Source of the DNA: Gilvimarinus agarilyticus
GTDB lineage: Bacteria > Pseudomonadota > Gammaproteobacteria > Pseudomonadales > Cellvibrionaceae
DNA: 64,000 nucleotides
Assembly (NCBI RefSeq): GCF_000832015.1
Contig: NZ_JXCJ01000001.1
Span: 2,387,003-2,451,002, forward strand
Direction of reading: 5' to 3'
The notes under the pieces were generated by a model, which did no database searches, was not told the DNA's origin, and saw nothing but the letters and a program-made list of their open reading frames with translations. The position numbers were made by a program, and so were the translations under genes. Shown in pieces: positions 190 to 54,478 of the stretch. How positions within the stretch are numbered: the first letter of the stretch is position 1; every line of letters begins with the position of its first letter.

Positions 190-1587
190 CTAGGGGTGCG
201 TTAATCGCTGGGGGTCGAGCAATTCGCTCAACTTTTCGCGGGATAACTCGGTTTCTTCCTCGGCCACATCAAGAATATCTCGCTGCTCGCGATAGGCTTT
301 TTTGGCGATTTCGGCGGCTTTGCTGTAGCCGATGGTGGCGTTAAGGGCGGTGACAAGAATGGGGTTTTTGGCCAGCGGGCGCTGGATTTTGTCGTGATTG
401 ACGCTAAACCCCGCGATGGCCTGATCCGCTAGGCTGGTGGCGCTGTTGGCCATGAGCTGGATGGACTGCAACAAGTTGCTGCCAATAAGCGGTAGCATTA
501 CGTTAAGCTCAAAGTTACCCGCACCGCAGGCACTGGTGGTCGCGGCGTCTAGCCCCATCACTTGGGTGGCGGCCATGGCCGTAGCTTCGGGAATCACCGG
601 GTTCACTTTACCGGGCATTATCGACGAGCCAGGTTGCAGCGCGGGCAAGCTGATTTCTCCGATGCCGGCCAGCGGGCCGGAATTCATCCAGCGTAAATCA
701 TTACTGATTTTTAACACGGTGACGGCTAAGGTTTTGAGGGCGCCAGACAGGGCTGCTAAATCGTCCTGTGCGCCAATTTTGCTAAAAGCTGAGTCGCAAG
801 GCGTAAAGGCAATACCGGTATCCTCGCTCAGGCAGCGAGCAAAGCTTTGGCTAAACCCTTCAGGGGTGTTAATGCCTGTGCCTACGGCCGTGCCGCCTTG
901 GGGCAGGGCGCTGATCTCGTTAAGGGCCAGCTCCAGCCGTTGGCTGTTAGCGTGTATTTGCATGCTCCAGCCCGACAGCACTTGGCCAAACGTCACTGGC
1001 ATGGCATCCATTAAATGGGTGCGGCCGGTTTTTACCACCTGATCCAGCTCTTGAGCACGCTGGGTGATGATGCTTTGCAAGTATTCAAGCGCCGGTAGCA
1101 GCTGCTGGGTAATTTGCGTGGCGCAGGCGATGCGAATACTGCTGGGGAAAACATCGTTACTGCTTTGGCTGCAATTAACGTGATCGTTGGGGTGAACTTC
1201 AATGTTGGCCTCAGCGCACAGGTGGCTGATCACCTCGTTGACGTTCATATTGCTGCTGGTTCCTGAGCCGGTTTGATAGATGTCCACCGGGAACTGCGCC
1301 CGATGCTGGCCTTCTAACAAGGTTTTGCAGGCTGTTTGAATGGCGCCGGCACGGGCAAAATCTAACGCCTCGCATTCAATATTGGCCCTGGCGGCGGCGT
1401 GCTTTACCTGCACAATGGCGTCAATCAGCGGCGCCGGCAGGGGGCCGCCACCTAACGTAAAGTTATCCACTGCCCGTTGCGTTTGCGCGCCGTACAGGGC
1501 ATCTTGGGGCACCTTGACGTCGCCCAGGCTGTCACTTTCAATACGAACCGCGTTGTTGCCGTTGTCACTTGCGTCAAAAGAATCCAT
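190..1587 (-). CDS. fumC: Class II fumarate hydratase
   Basis: Iron-independent fumarase that interconverts fumarate and (S)-malate in the cytosolic TCA cycle. The 465-residue product has the usual family length. It shows the superfamily signature GSSIMPGKVNP (about 320-330), which carries the catalytic serine loop, the TGRTHLMDAMP segment around the active-site histidine (about 188-197), and GSGTSSNMNVNEV (about 107-119), which binds substrate. The N-terminus has an acidic, Asn-rich extension of about 15 residues before the conserved core. The gene diverges from uvrB; the start at 1587 leaves 94 bp for both promoters. Argininosuccinate lyase and aspartase share the fold, but the overall sequence reads as FumC. 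Confidence 0.96.
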   Translation of the reverse strand: MDSFDASDNGNNAVRIESDSLGDVKVPQDALYGAQTQRAVDNFTLGGGPLPAPLIDAIVQVKHAAARANIECEALDFARAGAIQTACKTLLEGQHRAQFPVDIYQTGSGTSSNMNVNEVISHLCAEANIEVHPNDHVNCSQSSNDVFPSSIRIACATQITQQLLPALEYLQSIITQRAQELDQVVKTGRTHLMDAMPVTFGQVLSGWSMQIHANSQRLELALNEISALPQGGTAVGTGINTPEGFSQSFARCLSEDTGIAFTPCDSAFSKIGAQDDLAALSGALKTLAVTVLKISNDLRWMNSGPLAGIGEISLPALQPGSSIMPGKVNPVIPEATAMAATQVMGLDAATTSACGAGNFELNVMLPLIGSNLLQSIQLMANSATSLADQAIAGFSVNHDKIQRPLAKNPILVTALNATIGYSKAAEIAKKAYREQRDILDVAEEETELSREKLSELLDPQRLTHP

Positions 1588-1681
1588 AGGGGCCTCGTAT
1601 CTGCAGTAAAATGAGTGATTGAGTTACTGTAGCATAGCCGCCAATGGGTGTTGTGAGAGCGCGTTAAAGAGTCTGTAGTTT

Positions 1682-3682
1682 ATGAGCACAAAGTTTAAAG
1701 TTCACAGTAGTTACCAGCCAGCGGGCGATCAGCCCACCGCGATTGCCGGCTTAGTTGACGGTATTGAATCGGGCCTGGCCCACCAGACACTGTTGGGGGT
1801 TACGGGCTCGGGTAAAACCTTCTCGATTGCCCATGTGATTGGTCAGGTACAGCGGCCCACCTTGGTAATGGCCCACAATAAAACACTGGCGGCGCAGTTA
1901 TACGGTGAGTTTAAAGAGTTCTTCCCGGATAACGCGGTGGAATATTTTGTCTCTTACTACGATTACTACCAGCCCGAAGCCTACGTTCCATCCTCTGATA
2001 CCTTTATCGAAAAAGACGCCTCGGTGAACGATCATATCGAGCAGATGCGCCTGTCGGCGACCAAGGCCTTGATGGAGCGCAAAGACGCCATTGTGGTGGC
2101 TACGGTATCGGCCATTTATGGCCTGGGTGACCCGGAATCGTATTTAAAAATGGTGTTGCACCTGGTGCGCGGTGACCGTATCGATCAGCGTAAAATATTG
2201 CGCCGTTTGGCCGAGCTGCAGTACACCCGCAACGATATGGACTTTCAGCGCGCCACGTACCGAGTGCGCGGAGACGTAATTGATATTTTCCCGGCCGACT
2301 CGGATATGGAGGCGGTGCGGGTTGAGTTGTTTGACGATGAAATAGAGCGCATCTCGATTTTTGACCCGTTAACCGGCGAGGTGCTGCACAAAGTGCCGCG
2401 CATGACGATTTACCCAAAGTCGCACTATGTTACGCCGCGCGAGAAAATACTAGCCGCGGTTGAAGATATTAAAGAAGAGTTGGCCGAGCGGTTAAAGCAG
2501 TTGCGCGAGAACGATAAACTCGTCGAGGCGCAGCGCTTAGAACAACGCACTCGCTATGATTTAGAAATGATGCAAGAGCTGGGTTACTGCAACGGCATCG
2601 AAAACTATTCCCGTTATTTATCGGGGCGCGATCCGGGCGAGGCGCCGCCCACCTTATTTGATTATTTACCCCGCGAAGCATTACTGGTAATTGATGAATC
2701 GCACGTGACGATTCCGCAAATTGGCGCTATGTACAAAGGCGATCGATCGCGTAAAGAAACCTTGGTTGAATACGGCTTTCGCTTGCCCTCGGCGCTGGAT
2801 AATCGCCCCATGCGTTTTGACGAGTGGGAATCGCGCGCGCCGCAAATGATTTTTGTCTCGGCAACGCCCGCCGCCTACGAGGCGGAGCATGCAGGCCAAA
2901 TTGTCGAGCAAGTGGTGCGGCCCACGGGGCTGGTTGACCCGCAAATTGAAGTGCGCCCGGCAACTACTCAGGTTGATGATGTGTTGTCTGAGCTGCGTGC
3001 GCGGGTCGAGCTTGAAGAGCGAATCCTGATTACCGTATTAACCAAGCGCATGGCCGAAGACTTAACCGAGTATTTATCTGAGCACGGCGTGCGGGTGCGT
3101 TACTTACACTCGGATATCGACACGGTCGAGCGGGTCGAAATTATTCGCGATTTACGCTTGGGCGAGTTTGATGTTTTAGTCGGTATTAACTTGCTGCGTG
3201 AAGGCCTAGATATGCCAGAGGTTTCACTAGTGGCGATCTTAGATGCCGATAAAGAGGGTTTTTTGCGCTCAGATCGCGCTCTGATTCAAACCATTGGGCG
3301 GGCGGCACGTAATTTAAACGGTAAGGCGATTTTGTACGCCGACCGTATTACCGGCTCGATGCAGCGCGCTATGGATGAAACCGAGCGCCGCCGCGAAAAG
3401 CAAATTGCCCATAACCTCGAGCATAATATTACGCCGCAAGGTATTAAAAAGAATATTGCCGATATTATGGAGGGCACTCAAGTGCCTGGCGCTAAAGGTA
3501 AGCGCAAGGGCGCGGGTAGGGGCAAATCAACCGAGACCGTCGAGTTGCCGGCCGATGGCGATATTTGGAAGCAGGTCGAAAAACTTGAGGCGCAAATGTT
3601 GGCCGCGGCAAAAGACTTAGAGTTTGAGCGCGCGGCGCAGCTACGCGATCAGATAAACCAACTGAAAGAGGCGGGCTTATAA
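1682..3682 (+). CDS. uvrB: Excinuclease ABC subunit B
   Basis: DNA-damage-loading helicase-like subunit of the UvrABC nucleotide excision repair nuclease. The 666-residue protein has Walker A GVTGSGKT (39-46), the beta-hairpin [12 protein letters not shown] (about 92-103) that clamps damaged DNA, a DExH-type motif (IDESH, about 338-342), a C-terminal helicase domain with the QTIGRAARN motif, and a terminal UVR motif (about 630-663) that binds UvrC. I looked for a LexA box (CTGT-N8-ACAG) in the 94-bp upstream gap and saw none, so SOS control cannot be claimed here. The stop codon lies inside a palindrome shared with the convergent kinase gene. Confidence 0.98.
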
Positions 3683-7395: not shown

Positions 7396-10326
7396 TTACA
7401 GGGTTTTGATACTGAAGCCGGCATCGGCCAATGCCTCTTTATTGCCAGCGCTGGAGATAACGGCGGTGCTGGCTTTGTCCGGCTGCAAATAGGCTTGGGC
7501 AACACGCTTAATGTCGTCACCGGTTACCTGCAAAATGCGTTGACGAAACTGCTCGCGCAGCTCGCGGGTGCGACCAAACAACTCGGCCTGAAACGTTTGT
7601 TTAGCTTCGCCGGCCGGTGAGGCGGGTTTATCGATGCTGCTTACCACCCCCAAAATAGACTGTTCGATCTCGCTTGGGTCGATAGGCTGCTCTTCCAGCC
7701 AGCTGAGGGCGCTGTCAAAGTCGTCGAGTGTCTCGCTCAGGCGTGGATCGCGGTAGGAGTAAAAGCGAAATACGCCGTTGTTGTTGTCCTGACTGGCACC
7801 GCCGCCGTAGGCGCCGCCGCGCTCGCGAATCGCGCGGTGTAAATAGGCATTACGCAGTACGCCGGCCAATACGGTTAGGGCCGGGGCATCCGCGTGATCG
7901 GCGCCTACGGTGGGGTAGGCTTTGGCACAAAAGTTAACCTGCGTATTGGTTAGCCATGCCTCTTTTACTTGCTGTGGCTTATGCGGCACCTGCAGTGGGG
8001 CAAAGCTGGTTTGGCTGGCCAGCGGCCAGTAGTTTTCCAGCAGTTGGCGGTAGTGGGGCAGCTGCTCGTCTTCGCCCACTAGCAAAAATTGGCGCGGAGC
8101 GGGTTTAATTTTTTCGTGCATGGCTTGTAGCGCGCTGGACAATGCCTCGCGGCCAGCCGAGTCGGCCAGTGAGTCATCCAGTACTTTTAATTCTGTGAGC
8201 CCGCCAAGGCCGCCAAGGTCATGGCTGATTTTAGCGCCTGGCGTCATGCCCGCTGAGGCAGCGGTCATTGCCAGCACGTGGCCACTTCCGGGCACGCCTT
8301 GCTCGCGACGCGCGCGCGATTGCGCCACCAGCTCGCGTAACCGGTCAAGCTCGTCAAAGCGTGCTTGGTGCAAGGTGCGGTGAATAAGCTCGGTGGTAAG
8401 CTCGGCATTTTTTGCCAGCGCCTTAGCCGATAACACCAAGTAACCGTCAAGCTCGTGGGGGTTGTTGCCAGTGCTGCGAATTGCCGCTTTGGCGGTTAAT
8501 GAGCCAACTCGCTGCGCCTGCAGGGTTTGCACTGCCAGGTAGTCTAAATCGCCCAGCCCAACCTCAGTGAGCGCCAAGGCGTAAATCGGCAGTAACTGCA
8601 GCTCTTGCTCGCTAAGCTGCGGCAATTTGATCACGACTTGCTGATACAGCAAACCGTTGGTGCCGGCGCCGTAGCTACGCAGTGGGTAGCCGGCGATGTT
8701 TTCGTGGCTGCCTGGGGTGTAGTGCATCTCGGCTGGAATATCGGCGAGCGTTACCTGTGGCAAGATGCTGTCGTCTTCCTGCAGGGTTTGGCGCGCTTCC
8801 AGGGCGCTGGCCTGCTTGACGATGGCTTCGCTTTCGGCGTCGCTTAGCGTTGCCTTCATCGCGGCCAGTTTGGCTTGCTCGGCCGCTTTAGCGCGGGCCG
8901 ACATCTGGGCGTCGGGGCGCAGCGTTAAGGTGACCCGGTGGGTGTTATCCAGCAGCCACTCGCGCACCCGGCGCTGAATAAAATCTGGCTCGGCTACGGT
9001 TTTACGAACCCTCGCCAGGGCGGACTCTAAATCCAGTTGGGCAACGGTGTCGCCACGATGGGTGGCGGCGGTTAAGGCCGTCATAATCAGTTGCAGGCCG
9101 TAGGGGAAGCCGTCGCCGCCAACTTCGCGCTGGGCCAGCTCTAACTGATGCAGCGACGATTCGATTTGCTCGGTGGGCACGCCATCGTTGGCCACTGCCG
9201 TCAGGGTGTCTAAAATCATTTGTTCTACGGCTTGCGTGCTATCACTGGCGCAACCTTCCAGGCCGCAGACAAAGCTCATCTCAAATTGACTGTCGTCCAG
9301 GCCGCATAAAGGCGACGGCGCCTGGCCCAAATCGGTTTGCTCCAGCGCCATGGTTAGCGGGGAGGCGCTGTTATCAAATAGCACGCTGGCCAGTAAGTGG
9401 GCTTCTAGTGCGGCCTCCAGATCGGTTACCTGGCCCAACAGCCAGCCCATTACTACGTGTGTTTTGTTGTCTTTAGAGGCGCTGTCGGATTCATCGAGAT
9501 CCAGTGGGTAGGCGTCTTCGACCCGAATGGGCGCGTGCAGGCGTTTTTCGGGTTTGACGGCAATGGTGTTGTCGAGTGCTTCAAACTGGGCCAGCGCCTG
9601 CTCGTGAAACTTGGCCTGATGTTCAGCCGCGGAGATATCGCCGTAGGTCATAAATACGGCGTTGCTGGGGTGATAGTGATGCTTATAAAACGCCTGCAGG
9701 TCGGCATAGCTCAGATCGGGGATATGCTCGGGCTCGCCGCCGCTGTTGTAATGGTAAGTACTGGAGGGGAATAAGTGGCTCGCGAGCTTTTGCCACAGCT
9801 GCGATGGCACCGAGCTCATGGCGCCTTTCATTTCGTTAAATACCACGCCTTTATAGGTCAGCTCTGAGTCGGGGTTGTTCGCCTCGGCAAACTCCAGGCG
9901 GTGGCCTTCCTGAGCAAAATCAAGAGGGTCTAAGTTGGCAAAAAAGACCGCGTCCAGATACACGTCTAACAGATTGTTAAAGTCTTTGCGGTTTTGGCTG
10001 GCAAAAGGGTAAGCGGTCCAGTCCGAGCTGGTAAAAGCATTCATAAAGGTGTTGAGCGAGCGCCGGGTCATCATAAAAAACGGGTCTCGCACCGGGTAGC
10101 GCTTACTGCCGCACAGTGCTGTGTGCTCTAAAATATGCGCGACCCCGGTAGAGTCGGTAGGCACCGTGCGTAACGCCACTAAAAATACATTCTCGTTATT
10201 GCTTGAAGCGAGGTGAATATGCTGTGCGCCGGTTTTGCGGTGGCGGTACTCTTCGACCGTCAGGTTTAACGACTCTAATGATTTACTGCGTAAATGCTCA
10301 AATTCGGGGTGCTGATGTGTACTCAT
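7396..10326 (-). CDS. M16C insulinase-family metallopeptidase
   Basis: Large zinc peptidase of the M16C (presequence-protease-like) family, 976 residues, the usual length for the full four-domain clamshell. The inverted zinc motif HILEH is at 64-68, followed by GSKRYPVRDPFF, typical of this subfamily, and the third ligand lies in the GVVFNEMKGAMSS segment (about 160-172). The C-terminal half has the RGGAYGGGAS motif that contributes to substrate binding. There is no signal peptide, so a cytosolic peptide-degrading role is likely. It is last in a minus-strand run, 31 bp after the DTW gene. Substrates cannot be told from sequence. Confidence 0.9.
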   Translation of the reverse strand: MSTHQHPEFEHLRSKSLESLNLTVEEYRHRKTGAQHIHLASSNNENVFLVALRTVPTDSTGVAHILEHTALCGSKRYPVRDPFFMMTRRSLNTFMNAFTSSDWTAYPFASQNRKDFNNLLDVYLDAVFFANLDPLDFAQEGHRLEFAEANNPDSELTYKGVVFNEMKGAMSSVPSQLWQKLASHLFPSSTYHYNSGGEPEHIPDLSYADLQAFYKHHYHPSNAVFMTYGDISAAEHQAKFHEQALAQFEALDNTIAVKPEKRLHAPIRVEDAYPLDLDESDSASKDNKTHVVMGWLLGQVTDLEAALEAHLLASVLFDNSASPLTMALEQTDLGQAPSPLCGLDDSQFEMSFVCGLEGCASDSTQAVEQMILDTLTAVANDGVPTEQIESSLHQLELAQREVGGDGFPYGLQLIMTALTAATHRGDTVAQLDLESALARVRKTVAEPDFIQRRVREWLLDNTHRVTLTLRPDAQMSARAKAAEQAKLAAMKATLSDAESEAIVKQASALEARQTLQEDDSILPQVTLADIPAEMHYTPGSHENIAGYPLRSYGAGTNGLLYQQVVIKLPQLSEQELQLLPIYALALTEVGLGDLDYLAVQTLQAQRVGSLTAKAAIRSTGNNPHELDGYLVLSAKALAKNAELTTELIHRTLHQARFDELDRLRELVAQSRARREQGVPGSGHVLAMTAASAGMTPGAKISHDLGGLGGLTELKVLDDSLADSAGREALSSALQAMHEKIKPAPRQFLLVGEDEQLPHYRQLLENYWPLASQTSFAPLQVPHKPQQVKEAWLTNTQVNFCAKAYPTVGADHADAPALTVLAGVLRNAYLHRAIRERGGAYGGGASQDNNNGVFRFYSYRDPRLSETLDDFDSALSWLEEQPIDPSEIEQSILGVVSSIDKPASPAGEAKQTFQAELFGRTRELREQFRQRILQVTGDDIKRVAQAYLQPDKASTAVISSAGNKEALADAGFSIKTL

Positions 10327-11289: not shown

Positions 11290-12117
11290 ATGCCCATTGA
11301 GTCCAGCCACCAGGATCGTAACTTTGATGATTTAGCCGGTCGTTTTAGCCGCAATATTTACGGTGGTTTAAAAGGTCAAATTCGTCTGGCCGTATTGGCG
11401 CGAGATTTTGCTGAGTTTTTACCCATCGCCCCTTATGTACCGCTAACACCCGATAAAACCCTTAATATTCTCGATGCCGGTGGTGGCCAGGGGCAGTTCT
11501 CACTGCCGTTGGCGGCGGCTGGGCATTCGCTCACCTTGTGCGATATCTCGGCCAACATGCTCAAAATAGCTGAGCAACAGGCCGCGGTATTAGGGGCTAG
11601 CGAGCACGTGCAGTTGCTGCAGTGCCCCGCGCAAGCCGTGGCAGAGTACTTGCCAGACGCTACCGCGCCGTTCGATTTGGTTATATGTCATGCCGTGATT
11701 GAGTGGGTGGTAGAGCCTTTTGCTTTGCTCGATCACCTGTTGACACTGCTGCGCCCCGGTGGGCACTTATCGCTGATTTTTTACAACAAGCACGGGTTGA
11801 TTTATAAAAACCTGCTGCGTACCAATTACAAAAAAATCAAAAGCGACGATTACCGTCCCCACCGTGGCAGCTTGACGCCGATCAACCCCGCAACCCCAGA
11901 GGCATTGCTGCAATACGCGGCGAGCCGTGAGCTGGAAGTATTGTGTCACAGCGGTATAAGGGTGTTCTACGATTATATTCTGGACCCGGAGCAGCGCCGG
12001 CGGGAGGAGGTTACCGTGCTGGAGCTAGAGCAGAAGCTCTCTCGCCAGCAGCCTTATCGCGATCTAGGGCGCTACGTACATTTATTGTTACAAAAGCCGT
12101 TTAGCTCAGCGCCTTAA
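11290..12117 (+). CDS. cmoM: tRNA 5-carboxymethoxyuridine methyltransferase
   Basis: SAM-dependent methyltransferase that converts cmo5U34 to its methyl ester in wobble-reading tRNAs. The 275-residue form begins MPIESSHQDRNFDDLAGRFS. The QDRNFDD...FSRNIYG block is the family N-terminus, which is why this start is chosen over the frame opening at 11128 (inside the divergent GIY-YIG gene) or the ATG at 11254. The SAM-binding motif I is ILDAGGGQGQFSLPLA, followed by LTLCDISANML and the later LRPGGHLSLIFYNKHG. No clear ribosome binding site precedes either start. The 3' end overlaps the convergent J-domain gene by 17 bp. Confidence 0.88.
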   Translation: MPIESSHQDRNFDDLAGRFSRNIYGGLKGQIRLAVLARDFAEFLPIAPYVPLTPDKTLNILDAGGGQGQFSLPLAAAGHSLTLCDISANMLKIAEQQAAVLGASEHVQLLQCPAQAVAEYLPDATAPFDLVICHAVIEWVVEPFALLDHLLTLLRPGGHLSLIFYNKHGLIYKNLLRTNYKKIKSDDYRPHRGSLTPINPATPEALLQYAASRELEVLCHSGIRVFYDYILDPEQRRREEVTVLELEQKLSRQQPYRDLGRYVHLLLQKPFSSAP

Positions 12118-12589
12118 GCACACAGGTTTTGGCCGCGTTGATCCGGGCCGCTAAGTAATCGTTGCCGCCGCGATCCGGGTGCAGCTTTTGAATCAGCCGC
12201 TTGTGAGCGAGCTCCACATCATTTTGAGTAAGCGTGCCTGCTTGATAACCGTCTTTTAGGCCAAGTGTGAGCAGCGCCTCTTCTAAACTGATATTGCTGT
12301 TTTGGCTATCGGGCGGCGGACTTTGCGCCGCTTTGTGACGCTGTAAAAAAGGTAAAAACTGTGCGGCTAATCCCAGTAACGTCTTGCCAAGTGGTATTAA
12401 AGCCCCAAGTACCGCGCCCAGCCAGTGAATCCGCCCGGTAATGGCTAAAAATACCAAAGTAACGACCAGTGCGCCGATCAATAACCGCGTGACGGCCTGG
12501 CGCTTTTTACCCGGCGGTAGCTTGCGCAGCCAGGAAACGCCAAAAAACAGCAGTGCCAATAGTGCGATAATGGGGATCAGACGAAACAC
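12101..12589 (-). CDS. Membrane-anchored J-domain protein
   Basis: A 162-residue co-chaperone-like protein with hydrophobic N-terminal segments (about 3-20, 36-54 and 57-82) and a C-terminal J domain (about 99-162) containing the HPD tripeptide at 137-139 in KLHPDRGGNDYLA. The layout (membrane part first, J domain last) is that of the TIM14/DjlA-like minor DnaJ proteins, which recruit DnaK (Hsp70) to the membrane. It is monocistronic and convergent with cmoM, with overlapping stop ends. The client is unknown. The 218-bp gap upstream (12590-12807) presumably holds divergent promoters; none is clear. Confidence 0.82.
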   Translation of the reverse strand: MFRLIPIIALLALLFFGVSWLRKLPPGKKRQAVTRLLIGALVVTLVFLAITGRIHWLGAVLGALIPLGKTLLGLAAQFLPFLQRHKAAQSPPPDSQNSNISLEEALLTLGLKDGYQAGTLTQNDVELAHKRLIQKLHPDRGGNDYLAARINAAKTCVLKALS

Positions 12590-12807: not shown

Positions 12808-14532
12808 ATGCCTGGTGCTAACATGATTTTTACAAACCTTGCCGTTAAACCTGAGGGGGCGTATTGGCTACCTTGTTGGCTGTCGCTCGTAAAAACCTGG
12901 TTGTTTGTTATCAGTGCGCTGCTGCTGAGTGCCTGCGGTGGTGGAGGGGGCGGCGATTCCGGCGGCGCTATTATCTCGTCGTCTTCTGTAGCCACTTCCG
13001 TATCGTCCAGCAGCACATCAAGCTTTTCGAGCTCGTCATCCAATTCGGTTTACATCAGTGGTTCGGTAAGTTACGACTTTGTTCCGGTTCGTAAAGCTCA
13101 GGGGCTCGACTATAACGCCACGGCGCATAAGCCCGTGCGCGCGGCGAAGGTCAATTTGATCGATGAGGCGGGCGCAGTGGTGGCTACTGCGCAAACCGAT
13201 CAGCAAGGGCACTACACGTTGACGTCACCGCGTGACCGTCAGGTTAAAGTTCAAGTCGAGGCTTATAGCTATGCCGATGCCGCCCAGCGCTGGGAAATTC
13301 GTGTTGAAGATAATACAGCGAATAATGCGCTTTATGTGCTTGAGGGAGAGTTGCTAAATAGCGGCCAGTCAGACTCAATGCGTGATTTACACGCAGGCTC
13401 GGGTTGGGACGGTAACCAGTACAGTCAACCGCGCGCGGCAGCGCCTTTTGCGATACTCGATACGGCGTACCGCTCGATGCAATCACTGCTTGAGGTCGAT
13501 CCGAACCTGACGTTACCTACCAGTATTTTTCGGTGGTCTGAAAATAATACCGTAGCCATTGGCGATTATGGCGACGGTGATATTGGTACCAGCTTTTACA
13601 ATGGTGCTGCAGTTTATGTGTTGGGGCAGGCTGGGGTGGATAGCGATGAATACGACGCCCATGTTATTGCCCACGAGTGGGGGCACTTTGTCGAGGTGCA
13701 GTTGGGTGGCCGCTCAGATTCTATCGGTGGCGACCACTCTATTACCGATAGGCTCGATATGCGGGTGGCCTATTCTGAGGGCTTTGCCAATGGCTTTTCA
13801 GCTTACGTATTGGCTGACCCCGAGTACCGCGATACATTTGGCTTGAGGCAGGCACGTTCATCAGGTTTTGATGTGAGTTTAAAAAATCCGGCCGTACGGG
13901 GGTGGTACAGTGAGTCATCGATTCAATCAATATTTTATCACCTTGCGGAGTTTGGTGCCTTCGATGCTATTTACTCGGTGTTTAGTGACCTCCGCTATGA
14001 AACTATCCCCGCGTTTACCAGTATCTTTAGTTTTGCTGAGCTCCTGGCGGAGCTAGACCCGCAAGCGTTTGCTGAACTAGACAGGCTGATGAATCAGCAA
14101 CTTATTGTGAGTCGCGACGCTTATGGTGAGGCAGAGACCAATAACGGAAGCACACAAGGCGCTTTACCTGTGTACGTTAACTTGGTGGCAGGTGGCCGCG
14201 CTGTAGTGTGTAGCTCGCAGCAAAATGGTCAGCAAAATAAATTAGGTGTGCACGCGTTTTTAGCAACCACGATATTCGCATCTGGCCAGTATCGATTACT
14301 GGTGGAAAATAACGGCGAGCGCGCTGCCGAGACCGACCCTGACATCGTGGTAAACGGAGCAGGAGAGCGCTGGGTAGGTTTGAGTGCGCAAGTGGATGCC
14401 GAATCGCTGGATTTGAATATGCAAGCGGGCGAGCGCTATGCCATCGCGGTTACCGATTACCAGAATCACGCTGATGCACTAACGCCAAATTACCAGCCGG
14501 CGTGTTTTAATGTCTCGCTTACGTCAATTTAG
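12808..14532 (+). CDS. Polyserine-linker lipoprotein with HEXXH metallopeptidase motif
   Basis: I do not recognise the family. The 574-residue protein starts at an ATG with GGGAG 8 bp upstream. A lipoprotein signal ends in the lipobox LLSAC (Cys43), followed by six glycines and a serine-rich linker (about 57-80) of the kind common in secreted proteins of Cellvibrionales. Residues about 81-150 look like a carboxypeptidase-regulatory beta domain (PVRAAKVNLIDEAG). The middle holds HEWGH at 289-293 and, 31 residues on, YSEGFANGF (Glu324), the spacing expected of a gluzincin-type zinc protease. The last 130 residues look like a beta-sandwich. It is thus a likely outer-membrane or surface zinc protease, substrate unknown. 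A second lipoprotein gene follows 11 bp later. Confidence 0.72.
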   Translation: MPGANMIFTNLAVKPEGAYWLPCWLSLVKTWLFVISALLLSACGGGGGGDSGGAIISSSSVATSVSSSSTSSFSSSSSNSVYISGSVSYDFVPVRKAQGLDYNATAHKPVRAAKVNLIDEAGAVVATAQTDQQGHYTLTSPRDRQVKVQVEAYSYADAAQRWEIRVEDNTANNALYVLEGELLNSGQSDSMRDLHAGSGWDGNQYSQPRAAAPFAILDTAYRSMQSLLEVDPNLTLPTSIFRWSENNTVAIGDYGDGDIGTSFYNGAAVYVLGQAGVDSDEYDAHVIAHEWGHFVEVQLGGRSDSIGGDHSITDRLDMRVAYSEGFANGFSAYVLADPEYRDTFGLRQARSSGFDVSLKNPAVRGWYSESSIQSIFYHLAEFGAFDAIYSVFSDLRYETIPAFTSIFSFAELLAELDPQAFAELDRLMNQQLIVSRDAYGEAETNNGSTQGALPVYVNLVAGGRAVVCSSQQNGQQNKLGVHAFLATTIFASGQYRLLVENNGERAAETDPDIVVNGAGERWVGLSAQVDAESLDLNMQAGERYAIAVTDYQNHADALTPNYQPACFNVSLTSI

Positions 14533-14543
14533 AGGTTGTTGTC

Positions 14544-15086
14544 ATGATTAAGCTTGTGCCGTTATTGTGCTTTGCCTGGCTGTTGGCCGCTTGTAATGGT
14601 TCTGTGGATAGCGCCGGTGCTGACAGCTCGGTCGTCTCGGCAGAGGTGCTCAATACGGCGCAAGTGGGTTCAGTCATTGGTAAGCCGGCGCTACCGGTAA
14701 GGTTATTGCACCCTCGGCAACGAGTGGATGTAGGGGTTGTGACAGAGGTTGATTTATCGCTGGTCACGGATTTGCCGGAGACAAGCTTTCGGGTAAGTAT
14801 TTCGCCAGACTCGGGTTTGTCAGTGGTTACAGGCTCTTTAGAGCAAACTTTAAACAGCGCCGACACTCTTGATGCGATGCTCATGAGTCTTGAGGTGCGG
14901 GCCGATTACCCCGGCAAGTACTATATTAACCTCGAGGTCGTTAACAGTGGCGGCGCCACCGGCCTGGACCGGCGGGCGTTAGCGCTTGTGGTGCTGGCGG
15001 GCCCTACGGAGGCCAAAGCGTTATCGGCAGAGCCTAAAACCATACCTGAAAAGCGCGTATTACCGGCCCAGGAGCGCGTTTATTAG
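14544..15086 (+). CDS. Hypothetical lipoprotein, partner of the HEWGH lipoprotein
   Basis: A 180-residue protein of unknown family. The signal peptide MIKLVPLLCFAWLLAAC ends in a lipobox with Cys17, followed by a Ser/Ala/Asp-rich linker, which marks a lipoprotein. The remainder (about 45-160) is rich in alternating hydrophobic residues and predicts mostly beta structure, like an Ig or bacterial surface sandwich; the last 20 residues are basic and charged. It starts 11 bp after the upstream lipoprotein gene, so the two are very likely co-transcribed and may act together at the cell surface. No catalytic motif is visible. Confidence 0.7.
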   Translation: MIKLVPLLCFAWLLAACNGSVDSAGADSSVVSAEVLNTAQVGSVIGKPALPVRLLHPRQRVDVGVVTEVDLSLVTDLPETSFRVSISPDSGLSVVTGSLEQTLNSADTLDAMLMSLEVRADYPGKYYINLEVVNSGGATGLDRRALALVVLAGPTEAKALSAEPKTIPEKRVLPAQERVY

Positions 15087-15233: not shown

Positions 15234-16265
15234 ATGAGTCAATATCGTCTAATGGCCGAATGGGAGCCCCAAGCGGCGGTCATGCTGAGTTGGCCCCACG
15301 AGGCAACCGACTGGCAGCCTCTGCTGCATTCTGTTTATCAGGTTTATGCCGAGCTTGCCTGGCACATCTGCCGCTATAGCCGCTTATTGATAGCGGCTCC
15401 GGCCTCCAGTCATAACACGATTGCCGAACTGCTTGCTAAACGCGGTGTCCCGCACGATGTTGTGCGTTTATACGATGTCGATAGCGATGACACCTGGGCC
15501 CGGGATCACGGCCCTATCACCGTTGCGAGCGATGCCGGTTTTAAGTTGCTGGATTTTCAGTTTAACGGCTGGGGTGGGAAATTCGATGCCTCTCTCGATA
15601 ACGCCATCTCTGGTGCCTTAGCTCGCGCCGGTGCTTTTATGGCACCTCTTGAGACGATAGATTTTGTTTTAGAGGGCGGGGCGATTGAGTCTGACGGCGA
15701 GGGTACTTTAATGGCTACTCGCGAGTGTTTGCTGAACTCAAATCGCAATGGCGCTGTCAACCAGACAGACGTTGAGCAAGTACTGCAACGATATTTTGGT
15801 GTAAGCACCATTAACTGGCTGAGCTCGGGCTTTTTACAGGGCGATGATACCGATAGCCATATAGACACATTGGCGCGGTTATGTCCCAGCAACCGTATTC
15901 TTTATGTAGGCTGCCCCGACCCTGAGGATGTTCATCATCAGGCATTGGCTAAAATGAAAGCCGAGCTGCATGAATTTCGCAGTGCGAGTGGTGCAGCCTA
16001 CGAGCTTTATGAGTTGCCGTGGCCCGAGCCGGTTTACTCGGCAGACGGTGAACGTTTACCGGCTACCTACGCCAATTTTTTAATTTTAAACGGTGCGGTT
16101 TTAGTCCCAACCTACCAGGATCCGTCAGACGCGCTTGCATTGCGCACTGTAGCTGAGGCGTTTCCGGGCTATGACGTGGTAGGTATTGATTGCCGGGTGC
16201 TGATTGAGCAACACGGCAGCTTGCACTGTATTACCATGCAGTTACCTGAGGGGGTTGTAGTATGA
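15234..16265 (+). CDS. aguA: Agmatine deiminase
   Basis: Hydrolyses agmatine to N-carbamoylputrescine and ammonia, the second step from arginine to putrescine in the arginine-decarboxylase route. The 343-residue protein has the peptidyl-arginine-deiminase fold: EWEPQAAVMLSWPH at the N-terminus, WARDHGP (Asp/His around 90-95), EGGAIESDGEGTL, and the catalytic cysteine near the end in HGSLHC (about 332). An AGAGAG-type ribosome binding site precedes the ATG. The stop overlaps the aguB start by 4 bases (ATGA), so the two enzymes are made from one transcript. Confidence 0.96.
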   Translation: MSQYRLMAEWEPQAAVMLSWPHEATDWQPLLHSVYQVYAELAWHICRYSRLLIAAPASSHNTIAELLAKRGVPHDVVRLYDVDSDDTWARDHGPITVASDAGFKLLDFQFNGWGGKFDASLDNAISGALARAGAFMAPLETIDFVLEGGAIESDGEGTLMATRECLLNSNRNGAVNQTDVEQVLQRYFGVSTINWLSSGFLQGDDTDSHIDTLARLCPSNRILYVGCPDPEDVHHQALAKMKAELHEFRSASGAAYELYELPWPEPVYSADGERLPATYANFLILNGAVLVPTYQDPSDALALRTVAEAFPGYDVVGIDCRVLIEQHGSLHCITMQLPEGVVV

Positions 16266-17140
16266 CAGTACTTAACGTCGGCGTGGCGCAGCACGCCTGT
16301 AGTGACGATCTTGCGGCAAACCTTGCAACGAGTATCTCAGCGATTCGTGAGGCCGCTGCACAAGGTGCGCAACTGGTGGTGTTGCAGGAGCTGCACCGCG
16401 GTTTGTATTTTTGTCAGCGTGAAGACGTCGACGAGTTTGAGTTAGCGGAAACGATTCCCGGGCCGAGTACCGACTCATTAGGAGCCCTGGCTAAAGAGTT
16501 GGGCATTGTTATCGTAGCGTCTTTGTTTGAAAAGCGTGCGACAGGTTTATATCACAACACCGCTGTGGTACTCGAAACCGACGGTACAATTGCCGGGGTT
16601 TATCGCAAGATGCACATTCCTGACGATCCGGGTTTTTACGAGAAGTTTTATTTTACCCCGGGTGATTTAGGTTTTACGCCTATTAACACCTCGGTTGGGC
16701 GATTGGGGGTATTGGTTTGCTGGGATCAGTGGTTTCCCGAGGCCGCGCGTCTCATGGCCATGGCTGGTGCCGAGCTCCTTATTTACCCTACCGCCATCGG
16801 TTGGGATCCTACCGATGACAAAGCCGAGCAGCTTCGCCAGCGCGATGCCTGGGTAACCGTGCAGAGGGCCCATGCGGTTGCCAATGGCGTACCGGTTATT
16901 AGCGTAAACCGCGTTGGACACGAGGCCGACCCGGAAGGTGGTGCCGGCATTCAGTTTTGGGGCAATACCTTTGTCGCTGGCCCCCAGGGCGAGCTGCTGC
17001 TTGAACTTGGCGCAGAGGCAAAAACCAGAGTGGTAGCAGTCGATATGCAGCGCTCTGAACACGTGCGCCGTATCTGGCCATTTTTACGGGATCGACGTAT
17101 TGATGCCTATACCGATCTTACGAAACTCTACCGTGACTAA
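16262..17140 (+). CDS. aguB: N-carbamoylputrescine amidase
   Basis: Nitrilase-superfamily amidase that splits N-carbamoylputrescine into putrescine, CO2 and ammonia, completing the pathway begun by AguA. The 292-residue protein shows the Glu-Lys-Cys triad: LQELHRG (Glu43), YRKMHIPDD (Lys116) and LVCWDQWFPE (Cys153). It overlaps aguA by 4 bp. A diguanylate cyclase gene begins 20 bp after its stop. Family length and motifs are complete. Confidence 0.96.
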   Translation: MTVLNVGVAQHACSDDLAANLATSISAIREAAAQGAQLVVLQELHRGLYFCQREDVDEFELAETIPGPSTDSLGALAKELGIVIVASLFEKRATGLYHNTAVVLETDGTIAGVYRKMHIPDDPGFYEKFYFTPGDLGFTPINTSVGRLGVLVCWDQWFPEAARLMAMAGAELLIYPTAIGWDPTDDKAEQLRQRDAWVTVQRAHAVANGVPVISVNRVGHEADPEGGAGIQFWGNTFVAGPQGELLLELGAEAKTRVVAVDMQRSEHVRRIWPFLRDRRIDAYTDLTKLYRD

Positions 17141-24474: not shown

Positions 24475-24565
24475 TGGCGGAAGGGCAGGGATTTGAACCC
24501 TGGGTAGGCTATTAACCTACGCCGGTTTTCAAGACCGGTGCATTCAACCACTCTGCCACCCTTCC
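24475..24565 (-). tRNA. tRNA-Ser (UGA)
   Basis: A 91-base tRNA with acceptor stem GGAAGGG/CCCTTCC, discriminator G and an encoded CCA end. The anticodon arm is ACCGG-TCTTGAAA-ACCGG region with anticodon TGA (reads UCA and related serine codons). The long variable arm (GTAGG...CCTAC) is that of a class II serine tRNA, and the T arm has GGTTCAAATCC. Confidence 0.96.

Positions 24566-54393: not shown

Positions 54394-54478
<85 letters not shown>

Follow-up and report, generated by a model that had tools for sequence, protein, structure and literature searches.

Results

The locus and its protease gene

The window, that is the whole stretch of 64,000 nucleotides analysed here, comprises bases 2387003-2451002 of contig C1 in a genome of 4.19 Mb on two contigs. 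It contains the gene of a predicted zinc peptidase, which is followed immediately by the gene of a second putative lipoprotein, referred to below as the partner. The protease gene and its parts are the following:

12808-14532, forward strand: open reading frame of 574 amino acids with an ATG start, encoding a lipoprotein with a predicted thermolysin-fold zinc peptidase domain
12808..12936, forward strand: signal peptide and lipobox LLLSAC, with Cys43 and Gly at +2, read from the translation
12976..13047, forward strand: polyserine linker, residues 57-80, read from the translation
13054..14109, forward strand: thermolysin-like peptidase domain, residues 83-434 (model residues 20-371), by structural superposition; it takes in the CarboxypepD_reg stretch
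13672..13686, forward strand: HEWGH, residues 289-293, on a predicted helix, by conservation and by register with the HExxH of M36
13735..13737, forward strand: His310 of the IGGxH loop, kept in 104 of 105 loci
13777..13779, forward strand: Glu324, presumed third zinc ligand, present in all 105 loci and aligned with the Glu of M36 GEGW
14173..14526, forward strand: C-terminal beta domain with a predicted PPC/collagen-binding-domain fold, residues 456-573, by structural superposition

The named relatives nearest to the window protease in the protease tree belong to Gilvimarinus, Cellvibrionaceae. Its export parts are those described in the first-pass annotation: the translation reads LLLSAC|GGGG, with Cys43 as the lipobox cysteine of the 574-residue frame, and the Ser-rich stretch corresponds to residues 57-80. 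Of the 92 filtered homologues, 79 show a loose lipobox pattern within 200 residues of the start of the open frame. The lipobox, the linker and the C-terminal domain together suggest that the protease would be exposed at the surface. M4 and M36 proteases usually carry a propeptide. In the window protein no match to the FTP or PepSY families of Pfam was found, and only the signal peptide and the linker lie ahead of the peptidase domain, so that there is no room for such a propeptide; residues 1-14 of the model have a pLDDT below 50, and the first strand begins at protein residue 80.

Several other genes surround the pair. On the reverse strand, 12101-12589 encodes a small membrane protein whose end is weakly DnaJ-like (HPDRGG; E 0.14); in 14 of 81 loci, the window counted, a homologue of it lies close to the protease. 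Tandem genes of the agmatine deiminase type (PF04371) and the carbon-nitrogen hydrolase type (PF00795), which we take to serve putrescine synthesis, lie at 15234-17140 on the forward strand; at 7396-10326 on the reverse strand a 976-residue protein carries HILEHT near its N-terminus and is presumably an M16-type peptidase. The tRNA genes at 24478-24565 (reverse strand) and 54394-54475 (forward strand) are the only Rfam matches in the window at the gathering threshold. There were 2 promoter-like sites against 2.2 expected, and 7 terminator-like sites against 3.4 +/- 2.2.

Conservation and spacing of the zinc site

The HEWGH motif, previously singled out as a zinc-protease motif, occupies exactly residues 289-293. 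His289, Glu290 and His293, and with them Glu324, are invariant in all 105 homologous loci, of which 96 are distinct because nine came from two collections. When the sequences were filtered at 90% identity, 92 remained, with identities of 35-60% to the window protein (the query itself excepted), and each of them keeps the same residues. Other positions are nearly as constant among the 105: Asp317 and Arg319 are found in all, Arg302 and His310 in 104 each, and Glu296 in 101.

The first-pass annotation had also pointed to a downstream Glu at the spacing expected of a gluzincin. The residue stands, as Glu324 in YSEGFANGF, but the spacing is wider than in the M4 and M36 proteins in which it was counted. 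From the second His to the Glu there are 30 residues in the window protein, and among the 92 homologues 29 residues in 85 and 30 in seven; in the fetched proteins the gap is 19 in the M4 protein (L115, counted with a pattern that allowed 17-22 residues) and 22 and 23 in two M36 proteins (L131 and L130). The 29-30 residues of the window family hold an inserted IGGxH...LDxR loop between the zinc-site His and the Glu.

Thermolysin uses a third, catalytic His, His231. His was found in at least 60% of the 105 protease sequences only at positions 285, 289, 293 and 310; by this measure none is conserved in the C-terminal half, where a variably placed His may nonetheless occur. Within GW[FY][SN]E, the site that we take, in rough register, to match thermolysin His231 holds Phe in 57 of the 105 sequences and Tyr in the other 48. 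As the only other nearly invariant His, His310 may do the work of His231 and is a possible catalytic helper.

Family and fold of the protease

The zinc-site part of the window protein has no match in Pfam or NCBIfam. The profile search against M4 and M36 that had been suggested as a check matched the window protein to neither: PF01447 and PF02868 (M4) and PF02128 (M36) gave nothing in it at E up to 10. PF01447 had no match anywhere in its own genome, and the M36 profile none there at E 0.001. Weak PF02128 matches were obtained in three of 25 homologues (best E 0.012), and the NCBIfam M36 model that matched most often did so in four of 25 (best E 5.5e-4). Sequence searches of the PDB returned nothing across the zinc-site part, a RefSeq-annotated relative is named hypothetical protein, and a word search of the open-access literature, which is weak evidence of absence, found no publication on the protease family or the gene pair.

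The predicted model of the protease has a pLDDT of 92.6 and a pTM of 0.90, and the matches listed for it by Foldseek include M4 enzymes and collagenase C-terminal domains. The top VIA-align match was aureolysin (Z 19.0, rmsd 3.4, 261 of 301 residues aligned). Z scores were 16.0-19.0 for M4 enzymes, with thermolysin at 17.9-18.4, 14.1-14.3 for M36 fungalysins, 13.4 for the protealysin precursor and 9.4-9.7 for M1 aminopeptidases. Five M36 proteins were taken from related genomes and compared with the protease family by hhalign; the probability was 91% (E 1.1e-6), and HExxH as well as the distal Glu ([GS]EG motif) stood in register. Against two additional M36-like proteins it was 87%, and M4 against M36 in the same set-up gave 95%. 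A direct comparison of the protease family with the M4 alignment yielded a chance stretch only, at 2.9% probability. A separate M36-like group (L111 and L135) carries the motifs GVDDAEDAxxIxHEYGH and QVHADGEIW, and PF02128 covers only about the second half of its members.

According to the predicted model, the window protein is a thermolysin-fold peptidase, nearer to M36 by motif and nearer to M4 by fold score. By the tests made it is a member of neither, and its family appears to be a new one among the peptidases with this fold. The earlier statement that it belongs to no recognised family thus holds for the window protein in Pfam and NCBIfam, but its fold is recognisable and of the M4/M36 kind. 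The reading as a gluzincin is well supported by the confidently modelled thermolysin fold, the invariant residues and the M36-like register; fold and register together also support a putative convergence of His289, His293 and Glu324 on one zinc. From predicted fold and conserved residues, the protein is very likely an active zinc peptidase of the thermolysin fold. An M9 collagenase was also weighed, in view of a His-Glu gap of this length and of the C-terminal domain; as far as collagenases go, the 50 matches listed per fold search include CBD/PPC domains but no M9 peptidase domain.

Two beta-structured parts of the protein were assessed separately. The regulatory-like beta domain of the first-pass annotation is real, but the CarboxypepD_reg family of Pfam scores 31.5 bits in the window protein against a cut-off of 32.3, and the match falls within model residues 20-371, the part that could be superposed on enzymes of the thermolysin type. 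A separate regulatory domain was rejected on these two grounds; judged from the first and last aligned residues of the superposition, the beta domain is probably no module of its own. The C-terminal domain resembles the collagen-binding domain of ColG (1nqj; Z 12.7, 95 of 96 residues aligned, rmsd 1.9), and its Cys pair is invariant in 25 of 25 homologues.

The partner gene

The most informative feature of the locus is the gene directly downstream of the protease, which the first-pass annotation had passed over:

14544-15086, forward strand: partner lipoprotein, 180 amino acids, starting 11 bases past the protease stop codon
14682..14699, forward strand: KPGAxV motif (KPALPV in the window), ahead of the first strand, with K in 66 and P in 59 of 68 partners
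14697..15002, forward strand: predicted macroglobulin/Ig-like beta sandwich, block pLDDT 83-98, by structural match
15054..15083, forward strand: C-terminal tail, ending LPAQERVY (LPAxETI in the family), predicted to be without secondary structure, by conservation and model

The frame at 14544-15086 has no match in Pfam or NCBIfam. Frames surrounding the protease were clustered for the window and 80 named loci: a partner homologue was found in 69 of the 81, and other shared neighbour families (for example the agmatine deiminase-type gene) in at most 19, antisense frames excluded; 19 is the figure for the next family. The third neighbour cluster, of 23 loci, was discarded, being made up largely or entirely of frames antisense to the protease. 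By profile, 95 of the 100 distinct loci carry the partner downstream of the protease and on its strand, and the two domain matches are no more than 277 bases apart. These 100 are distinct by exact sequence only, so near-copies remain, and four of them (L147, L148, L177 and L178) were added by later searches; the 95 include one fused (L018) and one split partner (L017). No adjacent partner was found in L011, L030, L084, L099 and L178. The contig of L099 ends inside the protease, and L178 is a plasmid copy from Burkholderia.

The arrangement of the two genes varies. They overlap by four bases on a Comamonadaceae plasmid, where both are annotated as 'hypothetical protein', and L018 is a natural fusion (1387-3513) in which a single frame of 709 residues carries the partner part directly after the C-terminal beta domain of the protease. 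In four loci of Campylobacterota (L073, L079, L097 and L110) a single partner comes after two tandem proteases, L093 has two protease-partner pairs, and in L017, from genome G012, the partner is split over two reading frames. Used as a single query, the window's partner was found in only 8 of 38 genomes. Partner homologues are 13-30% identical to the window's copy; as the family diverges fast, profiles were used in later partner searches.

The partner model is ordered in its core and of low confidence at the ends. The top match listed for it was residues 1010-1117 of Salmonella alpha-2-macroglobulin (Z 11.3, 104 residues, rmsd 2.6); complement and other Ig-like domains were listed as well, and Foldseek added pilus chaperones. 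Ig-like folds are common, and the macroglobulin match alone therefore says little. Conservation was followed in an alignment of 68 partners, obtained from 70 rows by leaving out a near-copy (L085) and a cut-off sequence (L105). The best-conserved positions are G137, K31, G108, E161 and A159, the last two of which lie in the unstructured tail and are kept in 65 and 62 of the 68, respectively. Mean gap-weighted information is 2.32 bits in the tail against 1.56 in the core, and the tail blocks have a pLDDT of 73 and 69. A conserved flexible tail usually binds something, and the protease is the obvious candidate for its ligand. A loose lipobox pattern is present in 40 of the 70 partners, and by this pattern the partner is not always a lipoprotein. 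No Pfam family matched the window copy at E 0.1, and emfourin was not among the 25 of 42 families listed for the 68 members.

Co-occurrence of protease and partner

In 349 genomes from across the phylum, the protease was found in three (the window's own included) at E 1e-10, and the same three carry an adjoining partner. The partner profile at E 1e-5 gave four other matches, all in protease-free genomes (L152-L155), in frames of 1,769-1,866 amino acids; by eye, the long frames of L152 and L155 read like alpha-2-macroglobulins. Within the window's own family the partner was present in all of eight genomes with the protease and in none of ten without it. These 18 genomes were picked by protease status (8 of the 24 with a full-length protease, and 10 of the 13 same-family genomes lacking one), and the chance of such a split, calculated by hand, is 1 in 43,758. 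The two genes occurred together even in G033, where they are separated and the partner lies 47 kb off on the same contig.

The eight genomes carry 13 proteases, and a partner match adjoins eight of the 13. The exceptions are the G033 gene, two of the three proteases in G012, and one of the two in each of G011 and G021. G012 has a single partner, in two frames, for its three proteases; G011 has one, whose match holds one stop, for its two; and G021 has one adjacent partner and a weak partner-like match elsewhere. The pairing is not one to one, and extra protease copies are often without a partner beside them. Taken together, neighbourhood, co-occurrence and fusion make it almost certain that protease and partner are functionally linked.

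Spread of the protease family

A search of 58 genomes, the window's own included, gave 29 full-length protease matches in 24 genomes; in five further genomes only the serine-rich or N-terminal part of the protease was matched. The 25-homologue alignment used above consists of 25 of these 29, and since the four left out were second or third copies without a locus, the adjacency count leans to the best copies. A scan of one genome per species, over 84,980 species, found at least 595 pattern-bearing stretches, at least 475 of which encode a relative, and the best 80 were kept. The family is patchy: across the phylum 3 of 349 genomes have the protease, as against 24 of 37 genomes of the window's own family.

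In a quick tree of 81 proteases, the Alphaproteobacteria, the Betaproteobacteria (two rows) and the Epsilonproteobacteria each form one group, which argues that the gene is old; the Gammaproteobacteria need three changes. The protease gene has probably been inherited mostly with its host. The protease contigs assigned to Planctomycetota and Nitrospirota come from single metagenome bins and may be misbinned.

Discussion

Proposed mechanism and alternatives

We propose that the protease would be exported, carry a lipid anchor on Cys43 and be kept at a distance from the outer membrane by its polyserine tether. His289, His293 and Glu324 would bind the zinc and Glu290 would activate the water, while the collagenase-type C-terminal domain may bind the substrate or a surface. 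Plant or algal cell-wall proteins, which the first-pass annotation named for assay, would be hypothetical substrates. Having no propeptide, the protease would be tied functionally to a separately encoded and co-exported macroglobulin/Ig-like partner. This partner would dock on the protease, probably via the KPGAxV segment or the LPAxETI tail, and restrain it inside the envelope, in place of the propeptide of M4 and M36 enzymes. The idea of restraint is suggested by the missing propeptide, by a partner tail that is conserved though unstructured, and by the precedent of emfourin discussed below; we hold it tentatively, as somewhat short of an even chance. Against it count the proteases that outnumber the adjacent partners, and the L018 fusion, which fits a subunit equally well. 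An extended form of the proposal is a split thermolysin system, in which a macroglobulin-like protein acting in trans would take the place of the cis propeptide and block or mature the enzyme with its LPAxETI tail in or near the cleft. Both proteins would then represent new families, and the pair an envelope device of ancient origin in Alpha-, Gamma- and Epsilonproteobacteria. In this full form the proposal is doubtful.

A different role for the partner, as a steric chaperone or permanent subunit that aids folding or specificity and raises activity, is conceivable but on the unlikely side. Such a helper would suit a protease that has no propeptide, the attachment of the partner at the protease C-terminus in L018, the co-occurrence in eight of eight genomes and the pilus chaperones among the Ig-like Foldseek matches. 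The surplus proteases of G012 and G011 and the Burkholderia plasmid copy would, however, be left unassisted, unless one partner serves several enzymes. The partner might also be a dedicated substrate, cut for example at the KPGA segment or in the tail for its release or activation. The close pairing and the conserved motifs at flexible ends flanking a folded core are in keeping with this, but the CBD/PPC-like domain suggests that the protease has other substrates, and a substrate fused to its enzyme, as in L018, is less natural; we consider this improbable.

That the protein has retained the fold as a non-catalytic binder or structural protein is more improbable still. The C-terminal half has no conserved counterpart of thermolysin His231, which speaks for such a protein, but Glu290 and the three presumed ligands, constant in 105 of 105 loci, would be needless for a binder. 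A plain nutritional surface protease with an unrelated downstream gene retained by synteny can hardly be credited, even though polyserine lipoproteins with such a C-terminal domain resemble secreted degradative proteins and the partner is missing beside some protease copies, since the pair is retained in Alpha-, Beta-, Gamma- and Epsilonproteobacteria amid otherwise differing neighbours, co-occurs even where the genes are separated, and is fused in L018.

Whichever role the partner has, the locus adds a widespread, unnamed peptidase family of the thermolysin fold, with at least 475 relatives, together with a second unnamed family linked to the first. Should the partner prove to restrain the protease, as an inhibitor or a trans-acting propeptide, it would represent another route to the safe export of a dangerous protease and a new type of metalloprotease inhibitor. 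Thanks to the pairing, two proteins suffice to put the question to a direct test.

Comparison with known systems

With the M4 enzymes (thermolysin, aureolysin and vibriolysin) the window protein shares the predicted fold and the HExxH motif with its downstream Glu. It differs in having [SG]E[GA]xxNA where M4 has the ExxSD motif, in having no FTP/PepSY match and no conserved third His, in the His-Glu gap of its family (29-30 residues against 19 in the M4 protein counted) and in its putative lipid anchor. With the M36 enzymes (fungalysin) it shares the zinc-site register, a fold similarity of Z 14.1-14.3 and, in a few homologues, weak profile matches; it is distinguished by the extra IGGxH...LDxR loop and by having no propeptide match, and the His in PHxxGEIW that is conserved in the C-terminal half of the M36 set has no equivalent in the window family.

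Alpha-2-macroglobulins and complement proteins are multi-domain, whereas the partner is a single MG-like domain in a protein of 180 amino acids. In serralysin systems the gene of an exported metalloprotease neighbours that of a small envelope protein, the periplasmic inhibitor Inh/AprI. The likeness to the window lies in this placing of an exported metalloprotease gene beside the gene of a small envelope protein; serralysins are metzincins with a different fold, and the fold of Inh/AprI differs from that of the window's partner.

MepA of M. xanthus and MCA1217 of M. capsulatus are described as vesicle-borne or predicted secreted M36-type proteases (PMC4158809, PMC4257694), and MCA1217 is listed with a propeptide (PMC4257694), which the window protease does not have. 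FP0506 of Flavobacterium psychrophilum, an elastin-degrading gluzincin of 296 amino acids and a predicted cell-surface lipoprotein, was proposed as a new family; according to its authors, M48-type models are remotely similar to it, and homologues in the databases are confined to Flavobacteriaceae (PMC6414381). It resembles the window protein as a predicted surface lipoprotein and as a gluzincin, and, going by its published description, differs from it in length and in these similarities. The closest earlier case of a thermolysin-type protease that shares an operon with its inhibitor is that of protealysin, described as intracellular, and emfourin (PMC9505478). As that source describes the pair, it shares with the window a thermolysin-type protease gene joined to a partner gene; the window's partner is MG/Ig-like and has no Pfam match, and both window proteins carry predicted export signals.
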